64,000 nt of DNA from Leptospiraceae bacterium (GTDB lineage: Bacteria; Spirochaetota; Leptospiria; Turneriellales; Turneriellaceae), in contig JANWWS010000033.1 of the NCBI GenBank assembly GCA_025055765.1, positions 62,001 to 126,000 of the forward strand, in the 5' to 3' direction. The first letter of the stretch is position 1. Each line of letters starts with the position of its first letter. A program made the translations under genes and the position numbers. Under the pieces are notes generated by a model. The model was not told the origin of the DNA and ran no database searches. It saw nothing but the letters and a program-made list of their open reading frames with translations. Below are positions 24,571 through 51,968 of the stretch, in pieces.

Positions 24571-27500
24571 TTACCAGAGGCTAGGGCTATGAGCCTGGCA
24601 CATTGGCTGGAAATTTGGCGGCAATGGATTGTAGGTAGTCTGGATAGAGGGGGATAGATGGTCTCCGCAGCCAATGAGCACCACGAGGTCTGTAAGGTTG
24701 GTCGTATCGCTGTTAAGCATGTTCACCACTGTATCCACAGAGGCTGCAGAAAGATTGTTAAGCACTGCCTGTGCCAGATGGCTCACACCAATCCCTGGGT
24801 AGTCACGGTAACCTATGGGGGCTGTAGTGTAGCCACCACTGTTATGCCGTACACCGCTATTTGTCTGTACTATCATACGCACCATGGCTTCTCGGGTGGA
24901 TATATTCGGCCCTGTACTATTATAGTTAATAGCGTTGGCCCCCTTATCCACGCTGGTAAGGATATGGGCCAGTCGTCCCACAGCGTGGTTTAAGACCAAA
25001 CGCGAAACACTTCCTGATGAAACAATAGCGGCAGGCTGCTGAAGGGCAGGTGTGCAGGAAGAAAGGCCACTTATCGTAACGCTCACCGTTGCTCCACAGC
25101 CGGCGCCTCCTGAGGTAAGCCTTACGCCTAGAAGCCCTCCGTCGTGCATGATCGCTGTTGCTGTTGGCGCCGTGGCACAGCCGGTAAAGTTAATGCTGGG
25201 TGTGCCTGTGCAGTTTGCTACTGCATTTACTGCCGATTGGCCAATTAGGGCACTGAGGTTTGCAGTGCCAAGTCCTCCCGGAAGAGAATTAGGATTATGG
25301 TTATAGGTGGAGGGAGGATTAGGTAAGAGTTGGGCAATCAGGGTGTGGTCTGCATGGGCATTGGTGTTACTACCCACTTCAGCAGCATTCCCAATCATAT
25401 TTACTAAAATAGCTAGCTTCTTCATATCCGGATTTGCTGTCGTGTTTTGCAGTGTGTTCAATAAATTTACCATAAGGTTTACATTTGCCCCATTACTGTT
25501 GGTCAGTACGGCATTAATGAGGCCAACGAGGTTGCTACTGTTGCCTACACCATTTGTGAGCATTACTATTTTCTGTATATCTGTCACATCCTTGAGCAGA
25601 GTTGCTAACTGCTGCATGGCATCTTCACCATCATCATCGCGAACATAATCAATTAAATTTACCAACTTTCCCATGCCGGTGGCGTTTTGTCTTGAGCCTG
25701 CGGCGGCATCCCAGTTGTTAGGACCGAGAGTCCCGTTAATTAATGCTGCGAGTTTACCTGTACCCTGGGTGGCGGTTGCTCCAATATCCATGAAATTAAT
25801 CAATCGGCCCATTTTGTTAATGGAGCTCACCTGATTAACCAAAAAGTTTAGTTGGTTGATGTTTGTGACGTTATCCACCACTTTAGCTAATTTTTTGCCT
25901 GCTGCTTGCTCATCGTTGTTGTTTGCATCATCTTTTTGTGAACCAACAGCTACTATGTTGACCAAATTGCGGATATTTGTTGGGGAGATATTGTTGATCA
26001 TAGATACGAGTTTGGCAGGGTCCGCCACATTTTCAATTAAGTAGACTAGTGTCACCACCGCGGTCTTACGTCCAAAGGGTGCGCCGGGAGGGGCTCCCCA
26101 GACGTGGCCTGCTGCTTCGCATGCCGCTTGGGTAGGATGCCCGGGCACTCCGTCGCTACAGCCATCTACTTCGCTTGCCTTAAAAATGCCGTTTATAATG
26201 GCAGAGAGGTTTGTGGTTAGTGTAACATCATTTATGAGATCCACAACCTTGCATACATTAGTGACCCCATTAATGATGTCTCTCGTCTTGATTGTTCCTT
26301 CTTGAAGGGGGTCGAGGTTTGAGATAAGCACCTGCAGCTTGCCAAGGTAACTGCTTTGTTGTGCCGCGTTCGCAGCAGCACATGGGGTAGGATCTGCCCC
26401 AAGCCGTCTTCCATCGACAAGTCGCCTCAGACGAGGAATATTTGCTAAGGAAACTTCGTTTATAATAGATGCTAGCTTGCCAACATCGGTATGTACAATG
26501 ATGTTGGTAATGGCGCCTCCTGATATGGTGGCGGTAATGCTAGCTCCGGTTCCTGCGGGCGTAAAGGAAAAGGTGGGGTTTGTACAGCCACTGCCTCCAT
26601 TTGTGATGCTCATGAAGACCAGCTTGCCACCATGTCCGTAATAAGTTCCACTAGCTGGTGTTGTACAGCCTGAAGCGGTGGTCCAGCTACCCGTCACACC
26701 GTAGCCACTTGTTCCACTAAGGGCTGACATACTGTTAAGGAGGGTGGTGACATCCCCTATGGTATTGACATCCTGGATTAAGCGAACAAGCTTATCCATA
26801 TCTGAAATACCGTCAATCAAAGCAATTAGCTTTTGGTAGTCGCTTGTTGTATCACTGTCTTCGGCACTATCGGTGAGGTTGTTTATGGTGGCCACCAAGC
26901 GGGGGACCGCTGAATTTGCGGAATGGGGATTTCCCTTCGTGGTAGCCGAACCCGCCCACGTTTGCGGCCCCCCTATTTGGCCTGTCCAGGTTGAACCATC
27001 TTCTGCCTTGTTGATGAGCTGGCCTAACCTAGTGGGGGAGCTAATGTTATCTATGATGGCAATCAAAGTACTCAACGATGAGACCTGATTTACTATATAA
27101 CCCACCTTAGTGGCATTGGTCACCGTGTTTAAAATGGCCACTAGTTTGCTGACATCACTGACATCTTTTATTACAGTGACCATATTGCCAAGGGTGCTTA
27201 CACTTTCTAGTGCTTCAATAAGCCGGTCAGCATTTGTGGTATCTTTTATAAGAGCTCCCAGCTTGCTGACTTTGGTGGTATCGGGCGTGGCACCCCAATT
27301 TGCATGCTTTAGCAAATCACAGATTTTGACGCAGCTTGATGTCCCCGAGTCTACGTGTGCTAATATCCGGGCCATGCGTTGCATGCGGGGAGTATCTTGA
27401 GCATTTTGCATCCCCCGGCTTATATCAAGTCCTGTACCACCACTAGGCCCGCCCATGAGAGGTATAATGAGATTTTGTATTTCTGCAAGGGTTAGGGAGT

Positions 27501-27957
27501 TCACTAGACTTGCGATATTTGCGATGGTATCGTTGTCCGCTGGGGGAGAAGCAGGAGCATTCCAGGCTGCACCTACGGGCAGGTTAGCGCTCATATTCGA
27601 AAGGATGGCGGCATCTGTTTCTAGCAAAAGCCTTAGAATGCGGACAACACCGAGCCCTGTTGCTGGGGGTCCATCGTTACCAATAAGGGCAACCAGCTTA
27701 TTCGCATCCGACACAGCGTTGACTAGTTGTACGATGTTGGAGACCCCTGCTCCATAACTAAGAGCATTCAAGGATTCAAGACCTATTCCTGTAAGTAGTA
27801 TGTTGGCCTTCTCCTGCCCTAATAGACGGCGCCATTCCTCTGTGCTTAATGTGCGCCCACTATCTTTTCGGCGGTTTTCCTCAAAAGGTGTTAGCTTTTG
27901 TTGGGTGCAATAAGATGCCACCAGCAACAGGATAAAAAACCCTATCCTGAAATTCAT
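24571..27957 (-). CDS. giant exported repeat protein with about 25 copies of a 13-residue KLVxLINxVSxxx motif
   Basis: This 1128-aa protein is not recognised. It has a signal sequence (MNFRIGFFILLLVASYC) whose cysteine may be lipidated, although Tyr at -1 is unusual for a lipobox. From about residue 70 to the end it is built from a degenerate 13-residue unit, [KR]L[VA]x[LI][IL][ND]x[VI][ST]xxx, with six or more copies in strict tandem at about 240-330 (for example KLVAILNTVTNAT and KVGYIVNQVSSLS). Two beta-type inserts interrupt it, near 430-500 and 960-1020, both rich in GGSGC and TATISGG. A GGAGG ribosome site precedes the ATG at 27957. A surface-exposed solenoid is my inference. Confidence 0.75.
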   Translation of the reverse strand: MNFRIGFFILLLVASYCTQQKLTPFEENRRKDSGRTLSTEEWRRLLGQEKANILLTGIGLESLNALSYGAGVSNIVQLVNAVSDANKLVALIGNDGPPATGLGVVRILRLLLETDAAILSNMSANLPVGAAWNAPASPPADNDTIANIASLVNSLTLAEIQNLIIPLMGGPSGGTGLDISRGMQNAQDTPRMQRMARILAHVDSGTSSCVKICDLLKHANWGATPDTTKVSKLGALIKDTTNADRLIEALESVSTLGNMVTVIKDVSDVSKLVAILNTVTNATKVGYIVNQVSSLSTLIAIIDNISSPTRLGQLINKAEDGSTWTGQIGGPQTWAGSATTKGNPHSANSAVPRLVATINNLTDSAEDSDTTSDYQKLIALIDGISDMDKLVRLIQDVNTIGDVTTLLNSMSALSGTSGYGVTGSWTTASGCTTPASGTYYGHGGKLVFMSITNGGSGCTNPTFSFTPAGTGASITATISGGAITNIIVHTDVGKLASIINEVSLANIPRLRRLVDGRRLGADPTPCAAANAAQQSSYLGKLQVLISNLDPLQEGTIKTRDIINGVTNVCKVVDLINDVTLTTNLSAIINGIFKASEVDGCSDGVPGHPTQAACEAAGHVWGAPPGAPFGRKTAVVTLVYLIENVADPAKLVSMINNISPTNIRNLVNIVAVGSQKDDANNNDEQAAGKKLAKVVDNVTNINQLNFLVNQVSSINKMGRLINFMDIGATATQGTGKLAALINGTLGPNNWDAAAGSRQNATGMGKLVNLIDYVRDDDGEDAMQQLATLLKDVTDIQKIVMLTNGVGNSSNLVGLINAVLTNSNGANVNLMVNLLNTLQNTTANPDMKKLAILVNMIGNAAEVGSNTNAHADHTLIAQLLPNPPSTYNHNPNSLPGGLGTANLSALIGQSAVNAVANCTGTPSINFTGCATAPTATAIMHDGGLLGVRLTSGGAGCGATVSVTISGLSSCTPALQQPAAIVSSGSVSRLVLNHAVGRLAHILTSVDKGANAINYNSTGPNISTREAMVRMIVQTNSGVRHNSGGYTTAPIGYRDYPGIGVSHLAQAVLNNLSAASVDTVVNMLNSDTTNLTDLVVLIGCGDHLSPSIQTTYNPLPPNFQPMCQAHSPSLW

Positions 27958-28062
27958 AATGCCTCCTAATTTAAATCCCTATCTAACGATCGTTATATAA
28001 TTATGAACAACAACAAGAAACGGGGCCAAATTTTTTTGCCAAGACTGGTGCAGCGCACAATA

Positions 28063-31017
28063 TCAATATCCATAGCTGCAATCCCCACTTATGAGATCAT
28101 CGGCACAGTTTAAGTTAATGCGGCTTAATCTGCCATTGTATGTAGCTGTCATATAGAGATATCTTTTTGAGGCAAGGGACTGAGAGGTGGGTACAAAGAG
28201 GACTGCCTGGGGCTCGAGGTACCACGTAGGAAGATAGTGCATACCTCCTTTTAGAGGATCAACAGGGGGGCTATGGTCCTCATTTTGCCAGGCCAGATGT
28301 CCTCCGCCAAGCCAGTGGCTCTCTCCTGTGCTGATTTTACGCCGCACTATCCTTTGGTTCCTACGATCCGCAATATATAGATAGGTCCCGTCACTTGTCA
28401 CATCTTGTGGGGAGGAGAAGCGATTTCGTTGAACTCCTGCTGGGGTAGGATGGTTTCCCCAACCTTGAAAATCACCTCCCAACCATTGGAAGTGAGTGGC
28501 ATCGTATCCTGTTTTCTTAATTCTCACAATACGATGGTTGCCACTATCGGCAACATAGAGGTATTGGGAATCACCCCCTATACCTGTGGGCTCTCTGAAA
28601 AAGCAGGAGGTACTACCCGCATGAGGGCTTTGCCCTGCGCTTGAGTTTTCCCAGCCATTACACGAGGTTGGTCTCCCATTGCCTATGTAAGCTTCAAAAG
28701 CCCCCGTGGTGAGATTGCGCCGCACAAGTCGACGCCCGCCGTAATTTACCACATAAAGCGCGTTATTTGCCTCATCTACATAGATTCCCCATGGTATGTA
28801 GAACATAGTCACATCATATTCATAGTTGGAGAGCAAATAAAGCTCGTCCCGGCTCATTGGAGGCTGGGTGCCTGTCCCAACTGTTGCCCGACAAGAGGAT
28901 GCTGCGGGCGAAAAGGGTTCACACTGCCAATGGTCGTTTATACTTTTGGGCAGTCCCAGCCAGGCAATGAAACGGCCGTCTTTATCATATTTTACCACCC
29001 GCATATTACCACTGTCAGCTACGTAAAGATTTCCCGCGCTGTCTGTGGCAAGTCCACGTGGTTCAAAGAAACTGCGTCGACAATGGTTATTTACAAAACG
29101 ACCTGGTCCCCAATGGTAGCCATCTAATAGCTCAGAGTCAAAAGTGCAATCTAAGGTTAACTCCCCCAATCGCCCTTGAAAGGCCCCGTCTGCGGCTCTA
29201 TAGCGGCTAACCGCCATGTTAATGTAGTCAGCCACATAAAGGAAGCCCGTAGTGCCATCTCGATAAAAAGCAATCCCCGCTGGACGGTAAAAGAAACCAG
29301 CTTCATTACCCCAAGGAGCTCCCTGATCCGTCTGCCAACCATCTTGACCTCCACCCACCCACGAAGAATGGTTTCTCTCATCCACGGGGAGATTTCCTAC
29401 AGGAAGACAGTTACTGTCTGTTGTGGCATTGTACACAATAATATGGTATACCTGGCATGGGTCAAAAAGGTCTGGTGGAATATTTTGGCTTGCCCTAAAA
29501 AGATGGAGTTTGGCATCCCCGTGGTAGGGGATTTCACTGTATGTATTAATGATAAAACCAAGCGCCGGATGCGTTCCCCTGTTAGTAGGGTTGTAGGGAG
29601 AATCTAAGAATTTGGGCTGTGCACCCGGACAACTGTCACTGGGGCCATTGTGCGTGTAGCGAAAAGTAAAGTAGGAAAACCCTTTGATGCACGATGGTGC
29701 TTCATAAGACACGGCCAGGCTTGAAGGCAAAAACGAAAGTCCCCCCTCACCTGCGGGCATGAGCCCAATTCCTCTATACGACAGTTCATATTTGCGTGAC
29801 CCAGGGCCGCCATCCCCCAAATTTATGGCGCTGCCATCTTCACGGATGAGGGTCGTTAGATTTTTACCCGCCTGGCTAAGGTAGCTTGAAATCACATAAT
29901 CACGGTAGAGGTCGGAAAAGCTACCACCGTTAACTTGATTCACAAGGGGCCATAGTCCCATAAGATCAGGGTTTTCCACAATGACGAGCTGGCGAAAGCC
30001 TATTTCTGCAGAAGGGCCCAGGCGGTGACGTAGATAAGAGAAAAAAAAGAGTGATTGTACATATCCGGTGCCTCCCTCTTTAAATTCCAAGAGGGAGGGA
30101 GCCTTTTGCAACTCTGCCTGGATGAGAGGAGAGGCATGCAAAGTAAGCCTCTCCTGAAAAGCCGAGGTGGTGTTCGCCACAAGGTGGGGGGCATTCTCGG
30201 CCATTCCCTCAGCTATCCACAGATCATGAATTTTAAGCCTCTCTCGAGTTACCCGGCGGTACCAGGTGAACAGATGAGAAAGCTCGTGCAAAACCACATC
30301 TTTGAGATAGTTTCTCGCCAAAGCGCTTTGGTTATCAAAGGCCACACCATTGTACGTGGGATTGAGATCAATGTAGACGAGAGCATTTTCATTAGAGCGC
30401 CCACGCAAAAGCTGAACAGTAGGGGGCTCATAGCGGGATATGAGCAAGGGGGACAGATATAGACCTCTCGTAAATTCATCAGAAAATAAATCGCGCGGTG
30501 AAAAGAATCCCGCGATAAACTGACCCGTCTTCGTATAGTCATCTCTAATATCCGTGGCGAGAATAACAATTCTCTGGTAGGGATGAATTTCGGGAAAATA
30601 ATTATCTCCATAAACTCGCTTTAGCTTTGGCAGGTGGACCTCAAAGAAATCGAGGAATTGCTGTGCCTCGCTTGCTGGCATGAGGGTGGCATAGGAGCTG
30701 TCTCTATAAAGTACAAAGTGTTCACTTAGAGCAAGTTTTTGGGCTTCTATTTGGTAAAAACCGTCAAGAGAAGGGCTAGCCTCCTGTCTACGATCTCGTA
30801 GCCAAAAGAGGGCCTGGGCAGGACCTCCTTCTAGGCCCGTACCCGGAAGACCTGTGCGAGGAGTAATAGATGGAAGGGGTAGCTCTTCCCCTAATGCTTG
30901 TTGAAAAATAACCTCACCAGGAAGAGAGCAGCGAACCCAAAACACAAAAACAAAAAAAAAGAGAAAACAAATATTTTTCTCTTGGCACCATGCCCTGCGA
31001 AATGATCTTGCGCCCAT
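28063..31017 (-). CDS. exported HExxH metalloprotease with C-terminal six-unit NHL propeller
   Basis: This 984-aa protein starts with a basic stretch and a hydrophobic segment ending in FVFWVRC, a possible lipoprotein or uncleaved anchor. The zinc motif HELSH is near residues 244-248, and WIAEGMAEN about 22 residues later supplies the third ligand, a gluzincin layout resembling M30-type peptidases. The last 420 residues contain six NHL-like units, each with a LYVADSGNHRIV-type strand, which should form a six-bladed propeller. The open frame extends to a TTG at 31071, but the ATG at 31017, after GGAACTAAGA, gives a more usual signal sequence. It lies 105 bases upstream of the repeat-protein gene, on the same strand. 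Confidence 0.82.
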   Translation of the reverse strand: MGARSFRRAWCQEKNICFLFFFVFVFWVRCSLPGEVIFQQALGEELPLPSITPRTGLPGTGLEGGPAQALFWLRDRRQEASPSLDGFYQIEAQKLALSEHFVLYRDSSYATLMPASEAQQFLDFFEVHLPKLKRVYGDNYFPEIHPYQRIVILATDIRDDYTKTGQFIAGFFSPRDLFSDEFTRGLYLSPLLISRYEPPTVQLLRGRSNENALVYIDLNPTYNGVAFDNQSALARNYLKDVVLHELSHLFTWYRRVTRERLKIHDLWIAEGMAENAPHLVANTTSAFQERLTLHASPLIQAELQKAPSLLEFKEGGTGYVQSLFFFSYLRHRLGPSAEIGFRQLVIVENPDLMGLWPLVNQVNGGSFSDLYRDYVISSYLSQAGKNLTTLIREDGSAINLGDGGPGSRKYELSYRGIGLMPAGEGGLSFLPSSLAVSYEAPSCIKGFSYFTFRYTHNGPSDSCPGAQPKFLDSPYNPTNRGTHPALGFIINTYSEIPYHGDAKLHLFRASQNIPPDLFDPCQVYHIIVYNATTDSNCLPVGNLPVDERNHSSWVGGGQDGWQTDQGAPWGNEAGFFYRPAGIAFYRDGTTGFLYVADYINMAVSRYRAADGAFQGRLGELTLDCTFDSELLDGYHWGPGRFVNNHCRRSFFEPRGLATDSAGNLYVADSGNMRVVKYDKDGRFIAWLGLPKSINDHWQCEPFSPAASSCRATVGTGTQPPMSRDELYLLSNYEYDVTMFYIPWGIYVDEANNALYVVNYGGRRLVRRNLTTGAFEAYIGNGRPTSCNGWENSSAGQSPHAGSTSCFFREPTGIGGDSQYLYVADSGNHRIVRIKKTGYDATHFQWLGGDFQGWGNHPTPAGVQRNRFSSPQDVTSDGTYLYIADRRNQRIVRRKISTGESHWLGGGHLAWQNEDHSPPVDPLKGGMHYLPTWYLEPQAVLFVPTSQSLASKRYLYMTATYNGRLSRINLNCADDLISGDCSYGY

Positions 31018-31197
31018 TCTTAGTTCCAACGAGCGAAACCGATATACTGTTATATAGAAGTTAGACGACAAAACCGAGAAAAAGTCAAGTTTTTTTCGAT
31101 AAGGACTTGTCTAACAAATTCTTTTGTTTGCCCCTTGGTGAAACAGCCCCTGTCAGAAACGAGGGGAGGCCTAATTTCTAGGAACAGAGCTTTTTGC

Positions 31198-31377
31198 ATG
31201 ACAAAATCGAACTGGATAGCGCTCTTTTTCCCGCTTTACTGTGGGTTAGCTGTGTTTTCCTTGGCTTCCCATGCAGAAAAATCGGTGGATAACCCATTCC
31301 CACGGTTTGGTAAAAAAGGGATTTGTCCTAATTATCGCCTTGGCTTTAATTATCCTGAGTTGTGTGTCACACGTTGA
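31198..31377 (+). CDS. possible small exported protein overlapping the next gene out of frame
   Basis: A frame from the ATG at 31198 encodes 59 residues with a convincing signal peptide (MTKSNWIALFFPLYCGLAVF followed by SLASHA). Its mature part then overlaps the next gene in a different frame and ends without any recognisable domain. It may be a true small exported peptide, a chance frame, or the original N terminus of the next gene separated by a frameshift. No clear ribosome site precedes it. Confidence 0.25.
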   Translation: MTKSNWIALFFPLYCGLAVFSLASHAEKSVDNPFPRFGKKGICPNYRLGFNYPELCVTR

Positions 31378-31663
31378 AGAAAGTGAGGAAATTAAAGTTT
31401 ACCCTAATCCCTATAGGCCCACCGCAGGTTTTTTGACCATTAAAGATAAAAACGGGAATTCCTTGGGCAATCACGTTGAGCTTATCGTGTACACCCAAAA
31501 CTACGAAGAAGTATACCGTGGCAGACTGCAAAATGACAAGTACGCTGGCATCGACAACCAGGGGGAGCCATTGCGCTCCGGTCTTTATATGCTGAAAATT
31601 ATACAAATAGAACATGGGCAAGAAAAAATTATGAGTTATGCCTATAGACTCGTGGTCGAATAG
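31271..31663 (+). CDS. small lipoprotein with FlgD/sorting-tail-like Ig domain
   Basis: This protein of up to 130 aa carries a lipoprotein signal (VKKGFVLIIALALIILSC, lipobox LILSC at about residues 28-31). The mature domain begins IKVYPNPYRPTAGFLTIKD and ends PLRSGLYMLKII followed by YRLVVE. This matches FlgD Ig-like domains and the type A C-terminal tail of type IX secretion cargo (VYPNP...SGxYxxxI). Here it stands alone as a lipoprotein. The start is uncertain: ATG at 31271, or the TTG at 31307 just before VKKGF, which gives a cleaner signal. The PorV-like gene follows 9 bases later. Confidence 0.72.
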   Translation: MQKNRWITHSHGLVKKGFVLIIALALIILSCVSHVEESEEIKVYPNPYRPTAGFLTIKDKNGNSLGNHVELIVYTQNYEEVYRGRLQNDKYAGIDNQGEPLRSGLYMLKIIQIEHGQEKIMSYAYRLVVE

Positions 31664-31672
31664 GGAGGTAAA

Positions 31673-32683
31673 ATGCGTAGCTTCCTTTTAGCGCTGGGTG
31701 TTTTTCTCACAACATCCCAGGCTGCCGAATTTTTAAAAACCAACTTTGGAGCCCGCTCTGTGGCTCTGGGCAATGCTTACGGGGTAATCGTAAACGATCC
31801 CTCAGCCCTCCACTGGAACCCAGCTGGTCTTGCCAATATCACGGGAGAGAAAACCACCATCAGGAAATTAGAGGATATCACGCGGGAGGCTGAGTCCGCC
31901 TTCGAAGAGAAAGAGTTTTCGGAATTTCTTGAGGAAAAGGAAAAATCCCAGGGTCCTCAAAGTGTGGCACGTACGGAGAGAGGTTTTGAACTTCAATGGT
32001 ACAACGCAGCGGCCTTTCTGCCCATGAACGGTTATACGGGATTTTCGGGAATTGGTCTTACGGCCTTGGGTGGCACTTTAGGGGCGGCCGCCTATGGTGC
32101 TCTTTCCCAGCGTATACAGGCATACGACAGTGCAGGAAATGCTGTCGCCTCCCGGGATTTCCGGGCTCTGGCTGCCTATCTAGGCTATGCCCGGCAAAGC
32201 GGTGCCTTGCGATGGGGGTTTAGTCTCATGGGTCTTGAAGAGGGCATGCAGCGCCGCCGTCAAGGCGGCGGTGTCCATATTGGTGCTCAGATGATTCCCA
32301 TTCCCATCTTATCGGCAGGGATTGCACTGCAAAATTTAGTGGGAGCTGTGCAAAAAGAAGCCAGCAATAACCAAAAATGGGAAAAATTAGATACCCTGCT
32401 GCGTTTTTCCTTTGCCATAACCACACCACCACCGCAAGCAAATATGAAGATTATCTTTGGCTTTACCTCAAATTTGGACCGTCGTCAAGAAGCTGTACGG
32501 ATGAATCTGGGCCTGGCCTATAGCCTAAGCCAATATCTCTACCTCATGTTTGGTTTGGATCACGGCAATCCTGCTACTGGGCTGGGTATTATGGTAAGAC
32601 CGCTCCACCTTGCCTATGCGGTAAACCGTGACAGCGTTTTTGGTACTCTACAGCATTATGTAGAATTAAACCTAACATTCTAG
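31673..32683 (+). CDS. PorV/UPF0164-family outer-membrane beta-barrel protein
   Basis: This 336-aa protein has a cleavable signal peptide ending in SQAAEF. The conserved start TNFGARSVALGNAYGVIVND followed by PSALHWNPAGLA is the hallmark of the PorV/UPF0164 group of FadL-like barrels. Alternating hydrophobic stretches continue to the end, and the last residue is Phe (VELNLTF), the usual barrel terminus. PorV in Bacteroidota is the type IX secretion shuttle, and the UPF0164 relatives in spirochaetes have no established role. A GGGAGG ribosome site precedes the ATG. It forms a pair with the sorting-tail-like lipoprotein gene upstream; folP follows 2 bases after the stop. Confidence 0.83.
   Translation: MRSFLLALGVFLTTSQAAEFLKTNFGARSVALGNAYGVIVNDPSALHWNPAGLANITGEKTTIRKLEDITREAESAFEEKEFSEFLEEKEKSQGPQSVARTERGFELQWYNAAAFLPMNGYTGFSGIGLTALGGTLGAAAYGALSQRIQAYDSAGNAVASRDFRALAAYLGYARQSGALRWGFSLMGLEEGMQRRRQGGGVHIGAQMIPIPILSAGIALQNLVGAVQKEASNNQKWEKLDTLLRFSFAITTPPPQANMKIIFGFTSNLDRRQEAVRMNLGLAYSLSQYLYLMFGLDHGNPATGLGIMVRPLHLAYAVNRDSVFGTLQHYVELNLTF
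32252..32270. repeat. GC-rich 7-bp inverted repeat inside the PorV-like gene
   Basis: CGCCGCC and GGCGGCG flank a GTCAA loop. In frame it encodes the RRRQGG stretch, so it may reflect coding only. No T-run follows. Confidence 0.5.
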
Positions 32684-45597: not shown

Positions 45598-45939
45598 TTG
45601 GCAGAAACACAACTTACAACTACACGAGTTGAAATTTTAGGGCGCCCCTACACTCTGAAGGGGGATGTAGACCCCCAATACATGGTACAATTAGCAGATT
45701 ATGTGAATGGCCGACTGCGGGAGTTGCGGCAAATAGCACCCCAAGCTGATTTTCAAAGACTGGTACTTCTGCTCTGCCTCAATCTAGCTGATGAAATTTT
45801 TGAATTGCGCAAAAGGCTGAACCAAATCCCCGAAGGCCTTACACCAGAGACTCTACGTGCCATGTACGAAAAAACGCAGAATCTTATTGAAAAGCTTGAA
45901 GCAGGGCTAATTGGGGAACCCTTGCGTGAATTAAAATAA
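45598..45939 (+). CDS. zapA: cell division protein ZapA
   Basis: ZapA binds FtsZ and bundles the Z-ring. The 113-aa protein shows the ZapA domain: TRVEILGRPYTLKGDVDPQY followed by LADYVNGRLRELRQ, then a coiled-coil helix (LNLADEIFELRKRLNQI). It starts with TTG at 45598; no ATG or GTG is available early enough in frame, and a GGAG lies 13 bases upstream. The gene follows the acidic coiled-coil protein by 5 bases and its 3' end overlaps the SprA-like gene by 9 bases. Confidence 0.88.
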   Translation: MAETQLTTTRVEILGRPYTLKGDVDPQYMVQLADYVNGRLRELRQIAPQADFQRLVLLLCLNLADEIFELRKRLNQIPEGLTPETLRAMYEKTQNLIEKLEAGLIGEPLRELK

Positions 45940-48900
45940 GATCCTTGCCCCAAGACCTACTTGAAACGAAAAAATTTCCTGCCTGATTTTGCGTGTTACA
46001 GGATCACGGTAACTATCCCAAACCAGTCGCAAGTCAAAATCTCCACTTACATTAGGATGCAGGTTCATATCAATTTTTTGGTATAACGTGTACTGGTCTA
46101 AGGTGGGCTTGGTCAACAATTGATAGATATCGTAATAGAGGCGGTTTAAATTGAGCGAAAAACGAATTTGGTAGCGAGGGTTATAGCGCAACATGAGTCC
46201 TGTAAGTTCCTGTAATAGGTTTTTGAGTCCAACCATTTCTGTACGGTATTCCACAGCATAATCATAGCCATACTCCCGCTCACGAATACCGGTAGAAGGA
46301 CGGGGGGGGATGGATTTTAAAATTAGCACATCCTCTGGGGGGTCTGTCGAGCGGATATAATGTTCCTCGTTATAGTCGCGAATCGTTATGCCAACCTGAA
46401 AGGCAAGAGAGCTAAATGTTCCTCCTCGTTCGTACCAGCCAAAATTAAGCCCAAAAGTGGGATTAATTCTGTCTTCCCGTAAGTTTTCTGTAATGCGCAT
46501 AGTGCGATCATAAGCTAAATTGAGATCCAAACTTGAGGAATGACCTTCTTTCTTTGCCCAAAACCAAAAGTCGAGTAGCTGCATGAGGTCCCATGTCTGT
46601 AGAACAGAATAGCCCCAATTGGCCGACTGGGAAGGTAAAGCCTTAAGATTGTTGCGCACAGTGTTTTGAGCGAGGCGAACATCGGTTCTTAAAGTCAAAG
46701 GAGAAAAAACATCCCATTGGGCAGAGGTATTAAAGTTTTCCCTTAGGGTAATACTGTTGTCATAGTTTTGAAAAGCCATATCATAGCCAGGTTCGGCTTG
46801 TGGCACAAGGGTCATCTGGCGCACAAAATCACGAGCTCGCGAAAAATTGTTCCGACCCACATTCTTCGTGGAGGTAAAATGGTGCCACATGGGGTACTGC
46901 CAAATGAAGTAAGTATGTTCCGCTAAAGGAGGTAAGGTACGGCGAAGACCATAAGGATCTTCATAGATCCCTGTTTTCGCAGTAAAGGGTAACGAATTTT
47001 CATTAAAAAGAATTTCTCTTGTGAAAGAGGGAGTGAGGGCACGCAAAATAGAAAAGCGTGGAAAAACTTTTTCGAAACTTATGGGTAAGGTAATCTTCGC
47101 CATTGTCTGAGTAAGTGGTTGCTTAAGCCTCTGATAGCGTGGCATCTGGTAAGTTAAGATGTTGTCACGGAACGACGTTTCCTGATAGCTTGCCGTAAGT
47201 GTAAACTGAGGAGAAAAAATGGCAAGATTTTGCCACAAGAATTGAAGCTCATAGTTAGTCTGGCGCTGACGGTAGCGAAAATCCCTTGGCTGGCTGAACC
47301 AAGGTAAATAGAAATCTCCCTCTACAGGGGTGAGGTTATTGTTGTCGGTATAATTCTTAAACACAAGCTTAGTACTGCGATGTGCGTAGGAAGGATTAAG
47401 ACTAATGGGGCCCCATTCCAAAGCTAGACTACTTGTAGCATCTTCCATTTGCTCTTTTTCTTGGCGGTCAGTATAAACCTCTGGTAAGAGAAAAAGGGGC
47501 ATGGCCGGTATGTGGCTTTGTTCTGAACGAGAAAAAAAACGCACACTGCTTTTAAGCTCATAACGGATTTTTGTTTTAAATATTTCGGGAAAATTCTCCT
47601 GAAGTATTAATGCCGGCGTGTGGGTGCGCTCCTTGACGACAAACTTTTGCCGGCGAGGGTTCTGGGCAAGTAAAGGATTTGTTTCAGCCACGACCTGGCT
47701 ACGCTCATGGTCAAAACGGCGGTACTGGTGGCTCAGGGTTAACTGCGGCACATGGGGGTTGGCAAAGCGAAAAAACTGCTCTATGGCATGATCTTGAGAG
47801 TGTGTACGGCCCTGCTGGTTTACATTGGCAGTAACCACTTCTGGGTCGGCATCACTCAATATTTGCAAGAGGCTATAGCGGCTACGCCAGAAGGGAAAAA
47901 GAGCTGTGCCAACCTGGAACTCTTGGCGCCTTTCATCCATATTCGTTTCTGTTTGACCCACTGAAGCAAAGCGTCTGCCCCGAAATCTTTCTTTATAATT
48001 AAGTTTGATATCAGATAAAATGGGTACACCACTTGCTGTTACAAAAATAGGCTTAGTGATTTCCATAGTAAATTCTGTTTTATAGGCATCATCTATTTGA
48101 ACTCGGGGCTCTTCTACATAAATTTCGTTAACCCAAATAACGCCCTTGGCCTGGGGATTTTCGGTACGCACTCCTACGGAAAGTACATTGATTTCTTTTA
48201 AGTTTACCTGCCCTGATTGTTTTTGGCTCTGCCTTAAGAGAAACTGTAGTTTTTGCCAACCTGAATTTTTTATAGGAGATGAAAACTCAAGGTAATCCCG
48301 TTCACTGGAACCTATGCGGAAAAGAAAGCTCGTTTGGGGAGGCTCGTCCCGGTAATTAACCCAAACAGTAATTTTGTCATAAAAGCGCAAATCCATGGTG
48401 TTACTAAAATTTCGCCTCACCGTGATTTCTTGGTAATTGGTTGAGCTAAAGTCGTATGCTAGACGCAGAGCAGCTTCTCTCATGCGCGCATATTCCGTGT
48501 TAGTGCGCCTACCATGCAAGGCCTCCCATGTCGATCTTTGGGATAAGAGAAAAGACTCAGTGCGATATTCGTTTTTGGAAAAAAAATTATCGATATTGGC
48601 TACCGAAAACACCTGGGGGTCTGTCACAGTCTCGCTGACATTGTCATAGCGAAGGGCCTCAATAAAACGCCACCGGGAACCTCCAAAGCGCATCCCGGAA
48701 ATGAGCATTCTACCCTTACCATTTTCCGATCCCGGCAATGGGCGCAGATAGAGCCTAATTGTCCGAACCTGCCGCAGGGCTTTTTTTTCTTCTGGGGTCA
48801 GTCTTCCCTTGTCAATTTGAATGCGAAAGAGCTTCCAGTCACCTGGTAAAAGGGTATTACTATGACCTTGCTCAAAAACATAGGCATTGTTACTGCTAAC

Positions 48901-51900
48901 AGGTATTGTCAGGATAGCTTGATCTTGGCTTAACAGCCCATTGCGGTCAAGATCTTCTGTGTCAAGCACACCATTGCCTTTCGTTACCGGAAATCCCGCA
49001 ATGTCAGGTCCAGCACCCACTATGGTCCTGGCAGAGTCGCAGTTGGGTGGATCAAAGACATAACCCCTATCCTCCGAGCGCAACCCATCTCGTTCCGCAT
49101 CTAATACAAAATTACGCTCACCTGCATCCCAATATTCAAAACTATCGCGAATACCATTTCCATTGGTGTCTCCATCCACACCATCAAGCCCAAAGTCTTC
49201 GCTGTCAAGCCGTCCATCAGAATCACTGTCTTCACTCACGGTACCCAAATCGAGAAACCACTCCACTCCCGACAAGGCCACCGCATCTATGAGCCGTGCA
49301 TTAAATTCAAGGTAGGTAATATTACTAAAGTCGGCCCCAATGGGAGAAAAGTTCCGTGTCATCACGGCAACATAGCGATTTGAACTTAGAGGAGCCAGCG
49401 AGAAATCAAATTCAAGTACAAGAGAGACCTGTCTTTCTGCCTGCGCTACATTCAGCTGCGAGGGATCTAAGTGACCCTCTGCCACATTGTATGGCCCAGA
49501 AAGTTGGCTATAGGGAGGTGAGGCAAAGGGCGAGACACCCAAATCAAGTAAGCCCCGCCTTACATCCGCAGGATCCCGGTAGTAGCGATAGTATAGGGGG
49601 GCTCTACTGCAAGGATGAAAAAAGACATTAGTCCCCGGCACAAGGGGAGGTGAAGCAAGTATCCAGTCTTTGTCAGAGATCTCAATGTCAAATACATCCT
49701 CCGAAGATTCCATATCATCGATTAAAGCCATCCCAAAGGTATTTGGGTTGTAAAACGAACGAGCATATTCCCCATAAGCATTGATCTTTACAGGAAGTAA
49801 GTCAAAGTCTACTCCTGGGACAGTATTGAACAAGCGAGTAATCCGTTCTTCGTCAAAATTGAGGTTAAGGTCAAACTCTGCCACAAGCCGGGAAATAGGC
49901 TCTTGTCCTGGTAGAGGAGCTACCGTAGGTTCAAATTGCCCATTGTAGAGTATAGTTGAGCCAAGCTTTACACTGCGATTTGCCTCGTAATCCGTACGCA
50001 ATCCAGCAATGTAGCCCTGTGTACTTGTACCAAAAGGAGAATACTCATAGCTAATTTCAATAACTGTATCTGGACCAATCACTGGGTCATTGGGATTGAT
50101 AAACGAAAAATAACCAGAGTTATAATCCACGTAATACTTCGATGGATCGACCAAAGCACCGTTAATACGCACAACCACCGTATTGCGCATGATATTGGTA
50201 TGGGAAAGCCGGTAGTTGCGCACCTCGTGGCGAAAGTCCGCCCTTAGGTAAACTAGCGAATTTTCTGCCACAAACGATGGCTGTCGGTCTGTGTAAATGG
50301 TACTTTCCGCCAGAGGCGTAAGATAGAAATTACCCGAAGAGTCCCTGAGTTGTTTAAAGGGCTCCCGCAAATTAAACGAGATAATCCCTTGCAAAAAGTC
50401 AATTTGGTAGCTACCTAGCTGAGCAAGTTGCCCCACGTTTTGAAAGCCGCGGTTAACCACGCCCAATTGAAAGGCCGCTTCTTGGATAATAGGCACACCT
50501 AGTTCATAAATCCCCCTTACTTCGTAGATATCCAAATTAAACTTTTGGTCATCAATAATAATGACGTCCTGACTGCCGTTGTAGTCCACATCTTCTTGCA
50601 GAGTGCTTTCCCAGCGCAAGAAGGTCTCAATTACACCTGTACCACCATCCTGCCAAGCAGTGGGATCGCAAGTAGGACCTCCCGAGGCACGAGTGTATTG
50701 CACAAAAAGACGAAAATTGTCACTAATCCCCCTAAAAAAGACGATGCGCCCCATACGGGGATTAAAGCCATAATCCTTACCTTCTTGCAAGAGATGGTAG
50801 GTACCAAGAGAATTACAGGTGGTAAGCTGGCAGCGTAAGGAAATTTTTTCCCAAGGCACAGCAGAAAGTGCTGTATCATTGCGCGGGTCCCGGTCATCGA
50901 GATAAATACGCAAAGAGCCAGGATCAATATCTACCGGCAACGGCACAAAAGTAGCGGCATTGGCCTTACGAGAGGTAAGGGTGGCTAGGGCTTGAGGGGA
51001 ATTCTTATCCCAGGAAGAAGCGTTAATGACGGGAGAGCAGCCATCCCCATAATGAAGGAAGGGTTCAAGCTGGTAATACTTGCGAGGTGTGAAGCGGTAT
51101 TCTGGCAGGAGCACCGTGCTATTTCGGAATCCTCCGGTAAAACGGTCAATGGCATGCTCTCCCTGGGTAAGGGTGGCAATGGTATGGAATTTCAACTTCC
51201 CTCTTTCCATGCGGGATTCGAGACCCACGGTTTGCTTGCCTCGTTGCTCAAAGACAGCAAACTCAGACTTCGGGAAAGAAAGTTCAATATTGCCAAAGGT
51301 TACCTCTTGTACAAATTCACGTCGGCGTAGGGCTTTATATTGTACTTTAAACGTATTTTCTGTCTGCCTTTCGTTTTTGTCAAAATCGATGTCCACCGTT
51401 ACACGTCGCCCTATTTTCCCCTTAATATTAACCTTCATATCCATATTTAGGTCAAACCCACGCCGTATGGTATTAGAAGTAGCTAGGAGAGTGTCGTTGA
51501 GGCGATCTTCCTGACTTACATAAAAGCTATCGCCGTAAGTAGCCCGCATATTCGTGCGTCCAAAGATGCGTAGTCGTACCGCACCATAATCAACTCCAAA
51601 ACCCCTTTCCCCTTCACTTACCAAAACATCTTGCTCCGCCTCCCATTTTTGGTACTCATGAAAATCCCCTTCGTAAAAGGCAAAGTCCTCTTCTTCCCGC
51701 ATTTGAAATTCTCGCTCCCAATCGCGATCTTCTTCGACAAGGGATAATTGGTCCTCTTCTTGCAACCACCGCTGCCACAGTTTACGCCGGCGTTCTTTGA
51801 CCCTCTCTTCTTGCTTTTCTGAGGCGCTTAAATCTAAAAGCCAAAAGTGAGTGTGGGTGAGAAAGAAATAAGCAAAAAGAAAAATAAGGGTAAAACTAAT

Positions 51901-51930
51901 TAGCCTTATATTAAGTCGAAGAACACTCAC
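45931..51930 (-). CDS. SprA-like giant outer-membrane protein
   Basis: This 1999-aa protein resembles SprA, the type IX secretion translocon barrel of Bacteroidota. A signal anchor (about 8-30) precedes a charged Arg/Glu-rich region. SprA-like stretches follow: DLNMDMKVNIKGKIGRRVTV followed by DIDFDKN, and VTFGNIELSFPKSEF. A Ca-binding-like Asp repeat is at about 895-935 (SDSDGRLDSEDFGLDG, DTNGNGIRDSFEYWD). The C-terminal half is barrel-like and ends with GARILF. It starts at GTG 51930. SprA homology is judged by eye. Overlap with the PorV-like gene's functional class is notable (finding). Confidence 0.75.
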   Translation of the reverse strand: MSVLRLNIRLISFTLIFLFAYFFLTHTHFWLLDLSASEKQEERVKERRRKLWQRWLQEEDQLSLVEEDRDWEREFQMREEEDFAFYEGDFHEYQKWEAEQDVLVSEGERGFGVDYGAVRLRIFGRTNMRATYGDSFYVSQEDRLNDTLLATSNTIRRGFDLNMDMKVNIKGKIGRRVTVDIDFDKNERQTENTFKVQYKALRRREFVQEVTFGNIELSFPKSEFAVFEQRGKQTVGLESRMERGKLKFHTIATLTQGEHAIDRFTGGFRNSTVLLPEYRFTPRKYYQLEPFLHYGDGCSPVINASSWDKNSPQALATLTSRKANAATFVPLPVDIDPGSLRIYLDDRDPRNDTALSAVPWEKISLRCQLTTCNSLGTYHLLQEGKDYGFNPRMGRIVFFRGISDNFRLFVQYTRASGGPTCDPTAWQDGGTGVIETFLRWESTLQEDVDYNGSQDVIIIDDQKFNLDIYEVRGIYELGVPIIQEAAFQLGVVNRGFQNVGQLAQLGSYQIDFLQGIISFNLREPFKQLRDSSGNFYLTPLAESTIYTDRQPSFVAENSLVYLRADFRHEVRNYRLSHTNIMRNTVVVRINGALVDPSKYYVDYNSGYFSFINPNDPVIGPDTVIEISYEYSPFGTSTQGYIAGLRTDYEANRSVKLGSTILYNGQFEPTVAPLPGQEPISRLVAEFDLNLNFDEERITRLFNTVPGVDFDLLPVKINAYGEYARSFYNPNTFGMALIDDMESSEDVFDIEISDKDWILASPPLVPGTNVFFHPCSRAPLYYRYYRDPADVRRGLLDLGVSPFASPPYSQLSGPYNVAEGHLDPSQLNVAQAERQVSLVLEFDFSLAPLSSNRYVAVMTRNFSPIGADFSNITYLEFNARLIDAVALSGVEWFLDLGTVSEDSDSDGRLDSEDFGLDGVDGDTNGNGIRDSFEYWDAGERNFVLDAERDGLRSEDRGYVFDPPNCDSARTIVGAGPDIAGFPVTKGNGVLDTEDLDRNGLLSQDQAILTIPVSSNNAYVFEQGHSNTLLPGDWKLFRIQIDKGRLTPEEKKALRQVRTIRLYLRPLPGSENGKGRMLISGMRFGGSRWRFIEALRYDNVSETVTDPQVFSVANIDNFFSKNEYRTESFLLSQRSTWEALHGRRTNTEYARMREAALRLAYDFSSTNYQEITVRRNFSNTMDLRFYDKITVWVNYRDEPPQTSFLFRIGSSERDYLEFSSPIKNSGWQKLQFLLRQSQKQSGQVNLKEINVLSVGVRTENPQAKGVIWVNEIYVEEPRVQIDDAYKTEFTMEITKPIFVTASGVPILSDIKLNYKERFRGRRFASVGQTETNMDERRQEFQVGTALFPFWRSRYSLLQILSDADPEVVTANVNQQGRTHSQDHAIEQFFRFANPHVPQLTLSHQYRRFDHERSQVVAETNPLLAQNPRRQKFVVKERTHTPALILQENFPEIFKTKIRYELKSSVRFFSRSEQSHIPAMPLFLLPEVYTDRQEKEQMEDATSSLALEWGPISLNPSYAHRSTKLVFKNYTDNNNLTPVEGDFYLPWFSQPRDFRYRQRQTNYELQFLWQNLAIFSPQFTLTASYQETSFRDNILTYQMPRYQRLKQPLTQTMAKITLPISFEKVFPRFSILRALTPSFTREILFNENSLPFTAKTGIYEDPYGLRRTLPPLAEHTYFIWQYPMWHHFTSTKNVGRNNFSRARDFVRQMTLVPQAEPGYDMAFQNYDNSITLRENFNTSAQWDVFSPLTLRTDVRLAQNTVRNNLKALPSQSANWGYSVLQTWDLMQLLDFWFWAKKEGHSSSLDLNLAYDRTMRITENLREDRINPTFGLNFGWYERGGTFSSLAFQVGITIRDYNEEHYIRSTDPPEDVLILKSIPPRPSTGIREREYGYDYAVEYRTEMVGLKNLLQELTGLMLRYNPRYQIRFSLNLNRLYYDIYQLLTKPTLDQYTLYQKIDMNLHPNVSGDFDLRLVWDSYRDPVTRKIRQEIFSFQVGLGARILF

Positions 51931-51968
51931 CCCAGCCTTTTAGACGAGAAAAAACTGCCCTTGGGGTT

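Follow-up and report, generated by a model that had tools for sequence, protein, structure and literature searches.

A family of giant predicted spirochaetal lipoproteins built from 13-residue units, and its conserved gene module

LP1, encoded on the minus strand of the window (the whole 64,000-nucleotide stretch of DNA analysed here), belongs to a repeat family that is real, unnamed and unusual in the length of its unit, and the gene module in which this family is found is well supported. Three paralogue classes make up the family, LP0 (1554-2099 aa), LP1 and LP2, of which we read at least 26 members besides three in the distant spirochaete G110 and a fragment in genome G004. The LP1 open reading frame is a genuine gene, with the frame exact, a Shine-Dalgarno sequence and ATG in place and relatives that span the full length at 36-43% identity, so that the 1128-aa product proposed in a preliminary description of this DNA stands as it was drawn (Table 1). 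The same description had called the product exported; the more specific prediction, from the lipobox cysteine Cys17, is a lipoprotein. That description had overlooked this lipobox, as well as the paralogues, the barrel-like partners and the conserved order of the genes. LP1 carries the signal peptide and the lipobox cysteine near residue 20 by which spirochaetal lipoproteins are recognised, and this cysteine is an invariant alignment column, though the tyrosine at position -1 is unusual for a lipobox.

Table 1. Positions of LP1, its parts and the genes associated with it (window coordinates unless a contig is named).
Feature	Position	Strand	Basis or remark
LP1, predicted 1128-aa lipoprotein of 13-residue helical units	24571..27957	-	ORF, unit count, >25 relatives
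Shine-Dalgarno AGGAGG 5' of the LP1 ATG	27962..27967	-	direct sequence reading
LP1 signal peptide and lipobox, Cys17	27907..27957	-	MNFRIGFFILLLVASYC; Cys column invariant, 17 aligned members
Strict array, seven 13-residue units, residues 232-322	26992..27264	-	13-mer starts; AlphaFold2 helix per unit
Beta-type G-x-G-[YC] insert 1, residues ~415-490	26488..26715	-	predicted strands 421-489
Second repeat region, residues ~495-880, about 18 units, spacing 13-53	25318..26475	-	profile
Beta-type insert 2, residues ~912-985	25003..25224	-	alignment, full-length model, motif counts
Conserved C-terminal domain, residues 1005-1128, end ...GCGD...C...W-stop	24574..24945	-	invariant residues, 16 members
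M30-like metallopeptidase and NHL beta-propeller lipoprotein (M30-NHL)	28063..31071	-	upstream of LP1; start may be ATG 31017
HELSH zinc motif of M30-NHL	30274..30288	-	invariant in five homologues
BarA, BarB and LP2 (locus L008)	G000:C49 512-518 kb
LP0-like gene	G000:C49 490-496 kb

The repeat unit of LP1 has the consensus K/R/N-L-A/V-x-L-I/V/L-N-G/N-V/I/L-T/S/D-D/N-x-x. Applied as written, the regular expression of the preliminary description finds only two matches in LP1 and none in shuffled sequences, while a loosened form finds 19, compared with 0.8 on average and never more than 6 when the sequence is shuffled 1000 times. With a 13-column profile and a threshold of 6 bits, 35 units are recovered, where shuffled sequences yield 1.55 (maximum 4). 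The LP family itself served to train this profile, which makes the count partly circular; an excess over shuffles is present in every family member. The repeat as first described is thus real, and its number of copies, then put at about 25, lies nearer 35 by the family profile. The strict 13-residue period reported near residues 240-330 was found again as seven consecutive units, within which the 13-mers quoted at the time begin at residues 245, 258, 271, 284 and 297 and hence follow each other exactly; this gapless run is the longest among 30 family proteins and fragments, and the commonest unit spacings across the family are 13, 15 and 16. Autocorrelation of residues 226-345 peaks at lags 13, 26 and 39 (z 7.4, 7.4 and 6.7), and over the whole of LP1 at lag 26 (z 5.4) followed by lag 13 (z 4.1). 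At the DNA level, Tandem Repeats Finder (TRF) detected no tandem repeat in the gene and thus no recent duplication, so the units are old.

Structure prediction points to one short helix per unit. An AlphaFold2 model of residues 205-325 built from 24 in-register rows reached a mean pLDDT of 73 (79-88 in the central blocks) and a pTM of 0.57, and its helices, of 9-12 residues each, lie at model positions 39-48, 52-60, 65-74, 78-86, 91-100 and 104-115, i.e., one per 13 residues, in agreement with the autocorrelation at 26. The strict array is therefore predicted to form an alpha-solenoid of very short, 26-residue hairpins; of the helical or beta solenoid envisaged at the outset, the model backs the helical form for this array, and a beta solenoid is not favoured. 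The full-length model from 17 sequences is unreliable (pLDDT 48, pTM 0.31) and too weak for a fold search, and we used its secondary structure alone, which has a helix per unit in the repeats and strands in the inserts. A regular solenoid is hence predicted for the strict array, and given the low confidence of the full-length model a superhelix continuous along the whole of LP1 would be an extrapolation from it.

No named repeat class was found for LP1, which the preliminary description had likewise been unable to place in one. LP1 and its relatives gave no family match in Pfam, NCBIfam or PDB sequences, and the HEAT, ARM, TPR, LRR, Sel1 and PPR families of Pfam matched neither 17 members at E 0.01 nor further members. 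In HEAT, ARM and TPR repeats the unit is 33-47 residues long and holds two or three long helices, whereas in the strict array of LP1 the unit has 13 residues, the hairpin 26 and each predicted helix 9-12. Scattered weak matches to DUF4363, Tse3_N, IcmW, DUF6860 and EPSP synthase in Pfam, NCBIfam or the PDB were at chance level and were rejected as relatives. When the array model was compared to the PDB with Foldseek, nothing matched at E 0.001 or below; the top rows were the de novo designed repeats DHR14, DHR4 and DHR49, which are tandem helical hairpins like LP1 but have longer helices and, at a best E of 0.11, are not significant. VIA-align ranked MgtE chains first (Z 8.2 for 8gpv, with 102 residues at 4.4 A, and Z 7.9 for 2zy9), with a Z of 8 lying within the background for helical repeats by the tool's own note. 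The MgtE N domain (MgtE_N, PF03448), which is superhelical, has one short helix per repeat, as in the LP1 model, with the pattern L-x-x-[LI]-[LI]-x-x-[LV], but its period is 12 residues (lags 12, 24, 36 and 48 with z 16-19 in 20 spirochaete MgtE proteins) against the 13, 26 and 39 of LP1, and it is a cytosolic domain of about eight helices as opposed to a predicted lipoprotein with about 35. Profile-profile comparison of MgtE_N with the LP1 repeat gave no match (hhalign probability 0.3%), and the Pfam MgtE_N model, which picks up FliG-length frames too, matched no LP protein. MgtE_N is the nearest architecture to LP1, and LP1 is not a member of it by sequence or by period.

Two stretches of LP1 depart from the repeat and carry G-x-G-[YC] signatures (the inserts of Table 1), the first of which is missing or bigger in relatives. 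Across 17 LP1 and LP2 proteins of 736-1744 aa, length rises with the G-x-G-Y motif count (Spearman 0.89, p 2e-6) and shows no correlation with how many helical units there are (Spearman 0.00). The LP1 of G110 is compact, at about 850 aa when mature, and has a single such motif. Beta decorations have thus been gained and lost on a helical core, and it is the inserts that drive length variation in LP1 and LP2.

The C-terminal domain follows yet another course. Eight of its residues are invariant in 16 members (E1023, V1026, R1027, G1057, C1097, D1099, C1120 and W1128), and tryptophan is the final residue of most complete LP1 and LP2 proteins. In IQ-TREE phylogenies the N-terminal parts of LP1 and LP2 fall into two clades (100/100), whereas the C-terminal domains group by genome and not by paralogue class: LP1 and LP2 of G110 pair with each other (99/98), and the LP1 of the window joins the LP2 proteins of its own genome (G000) and of G004 (80/84). 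A single LP1 clade was rejected for the C-terminus (p-AU 6e-5), as was, for the N-terminus, a tree in which the window LP1 joins those LP2 proteins (p-AU 1.5e-7), both values being somewhat optimistic because the clades to be tested were named after the first trees. The C-terminal domains of LP1 and LP2 have evolved in concert within each genome.

Directly upstream of LP1 lies the metalloprotease gene already noted in the preliminary description. Its product has an NHL propeller (PF01436, 72.5 bits against a cut-off of 20) and the motifs HExSH and EGxAE, in which H262, E263, H266, E288 and E292 are invariant in five homologues, and its profile matches lugdulysin (7bb8) at E 1.5e-13. It shares with lugdulysin and the M30 peptidases this profile match and an HExxH motif with a downstream glutamate, but unlike them it is a lipoprotein and carries a fused NHL propeller, and its best match to Pfam M30 (PF10460) is weak, with no clear match overall and one of five members matched at E 0.0062.

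Elsewhere in the window, a divergent pair lies on the plus strand (31271-32683). Its first product is small, putatively a lipoprotein, and gives a weak Ig-like signal of the FlgD/Por-tail type (E 0.02-0.09, short of the cut-offs); the second is PorV/PorQ-like, matching NCBIfam PorV_fam at E 5.6e-11, again short of the cut-off. The combination recalls parts of type IX secretion, here outside Bacteroidota. The protein encoded at 45934-51939 on the minus strand is 2001 aa long, has a hydrophobic segment at its N-terminus and gave no Pfam match at E 0.01.

Within the data searched, the more than 25 relatives of LP1 come only from Turneriella-type spirochaetes and one distant spirochaete, a restriction to related spirochaetes that the preliminary description had named as a sign of novelty. 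Of 61 near genomes 12 have them, G013 from the window's order and the rest from its family. Among 296 genomes of the phylum they also occur in the distant G110 but not in its genus-mate G181, and the near-complete genomes G002 and G006, from another genus of the window's family, have no LP. A locus search in G287 (initial E 4e-4) gave no LP match, and we treat that hit as chance. A single-protein scan of 84,980 genomes with poor back-translated patterns found nothing, and an alignment-based scan found ten loci, apparently all from genomes already in the set; the latter also missed G110, so these scans do not prove that LP is absent outside the phylum.

The order of the neighbouring genes is conserved as well. 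In G110 (L087) it runs LP0, M30-NHL, LP1, BarA, BarB, LP2, and in G005 (L029/L030) M30-NHL, LP1, BarA, BarB and LP2 are consecutive with frames that overlap or nearly do, so that this five-gene order is common to two spirochaete orders. In the window genome the module is split, with M30-NHL and LP1 in the window and the other three genes at L008. Among the 296 phylum genomes, BarA occurs in 12, BarB in 12 (one weak) and a strong M30-NHL in 11, and all 12 genomes with BarA, the 11 with a real BarB and the 11 with a strong M30-NHL are among the 13 that have an LP (naive hypergeometric p 2e-20 to 2.5e-18, to be read with the few independent origins in mind). Based on these patterns, LP0, M30-NHL, LP1, BarA, BarB and LP2 form a well-supported candidate for a conserved cell-envelope module of spirochaetes. 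The presence of the whole module in G110 and its absence from the genus-mate suggest horizontal transfer or repeated loss.

BarA and BarB are probable outer-membrane proteins that may be beta-barrels, a reading that draws on their leader peptides, the absence of family matches to either (and of PDB matches to BarA) and their mostly C-terminal phenylalanine; a crude strand-alternation test on the copies at L008 and L035 did not support barrels (z 0.9, 0.0, 1.4 and 0.2). A third barrel-like type, BarC, adjoins LP1-like, LP2 or LP0 genes (L027 9598-10554, L032 1120-2082, L036 13917-14900, L007 6833-7795), and three of its genes were recognised as weakly BarA-like. Upstream of the module, G005 has two more repeat proteins (L029 2652-6812 and 9440-13303), which brings this one genome to about seven family genes.

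How might these proteins work together? With somewhat less than even confidence, we infer that LP1 is a lipid-anchored outer-membrane solenoid which is docked by its C-terminus, displays its beta inserts and acts with M30-NHL, the location, docking, display and function all being part of what is proposed. LP1 and LP2 would both be anchored by lipid in the outer membrane, and the C-terminal domain of both, with its conserved Cys pair, Asp and terminal Trp, would dock them on a single partner, for which the putative outer-membrane proteins BarA/BarB are plausible candidates; that this domain is kept alike in LP1 and LP2 of each genome is what contact with such a partner would lead one to expect. 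The solenoid would then be a curved scaffold on which the variable beta inserts of G-x-G-Y type face outward, where they could serve in adhesion or capture a ligand or polymer, and M30-NHL might trim or mature the complex or its ligand.

Other sites open to spirochaetal lipoproteins are the inner membrane and a position facing the periplasm. LP1 could be a connector anchored in the outer membrane's inner leaflet, its solenoid spanning the periplasm and tethering the outer membrane to peptidoglycan or to a partner in the inner membrane. The long, rod-like shape of LP proteins, their conserved C-terminal domain and neighbours of outer-membrane type would suit such a connector, but the fast-varying beta inserts and low charge resemble exposed decoration and Pfam detects no peptidoglycan-binding domain in LP, and we consider this arrangement unlikely. 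Less likely again, LP1 and LP2 could be substrates that M30-NHL cleaves and BarA/BarB export or release as mature solenoids, as the fixed gene order with a protease of intact motif and a C-terminal sequence common to LP1 and LP2 of each genome, like a sorting signal, might indicate; yet homologues of LP1 or LP2 at L008, L035, L027 and L036 stand with barrel-like genes and no adjoining protease gene, and no cleavage site was identified. The view that the repeat is merely an amphipathic sequence of biased composition that takes up no defined fold can draw on the low confidence of the full-length model but is highly improbable given the excess of units over shuffles in all members, the strong lags 13 and 26, the conserved column pattern and the confident central helices.

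Returning to the docked and displaying solenoid, a wider and more doubtful version of it would be a multiprotein outer-membrane apparatus with three classes of giant solenoid lipoproteins of 13-residue units, docking by a co-evolving C-terminal domain on outer-membrane proteins dedicated to them, and M30-NHL as a processing or ligand-handling subunit. Fixed gene order, shared presence and concerted evolution of the C-terminus make a physical complex a testable prediction.

A search of one literature library found no paper on the LP family, its gene module or 13-residue alpha-solenoids, and both family and module lie outside Pfam and NCBIfam. At 13 residues per helix, the LP unit would be near the smallest for an alpha-solenoid, the sole near parallel that we found being MgtE_N at 12. 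The family and its module mark a clade of free-living spirochaetes, among them the cultured species Turneriella parva, which together with Pseudomonas induces tumours in Hydra (PMC7081986). The predicted complex belongs to a type of envelope whose outer-membrane proteins are poorly known and, if the proposed apparatus is real, it would be a previously undescribed outer-membrane apparatus of spirochaetes.
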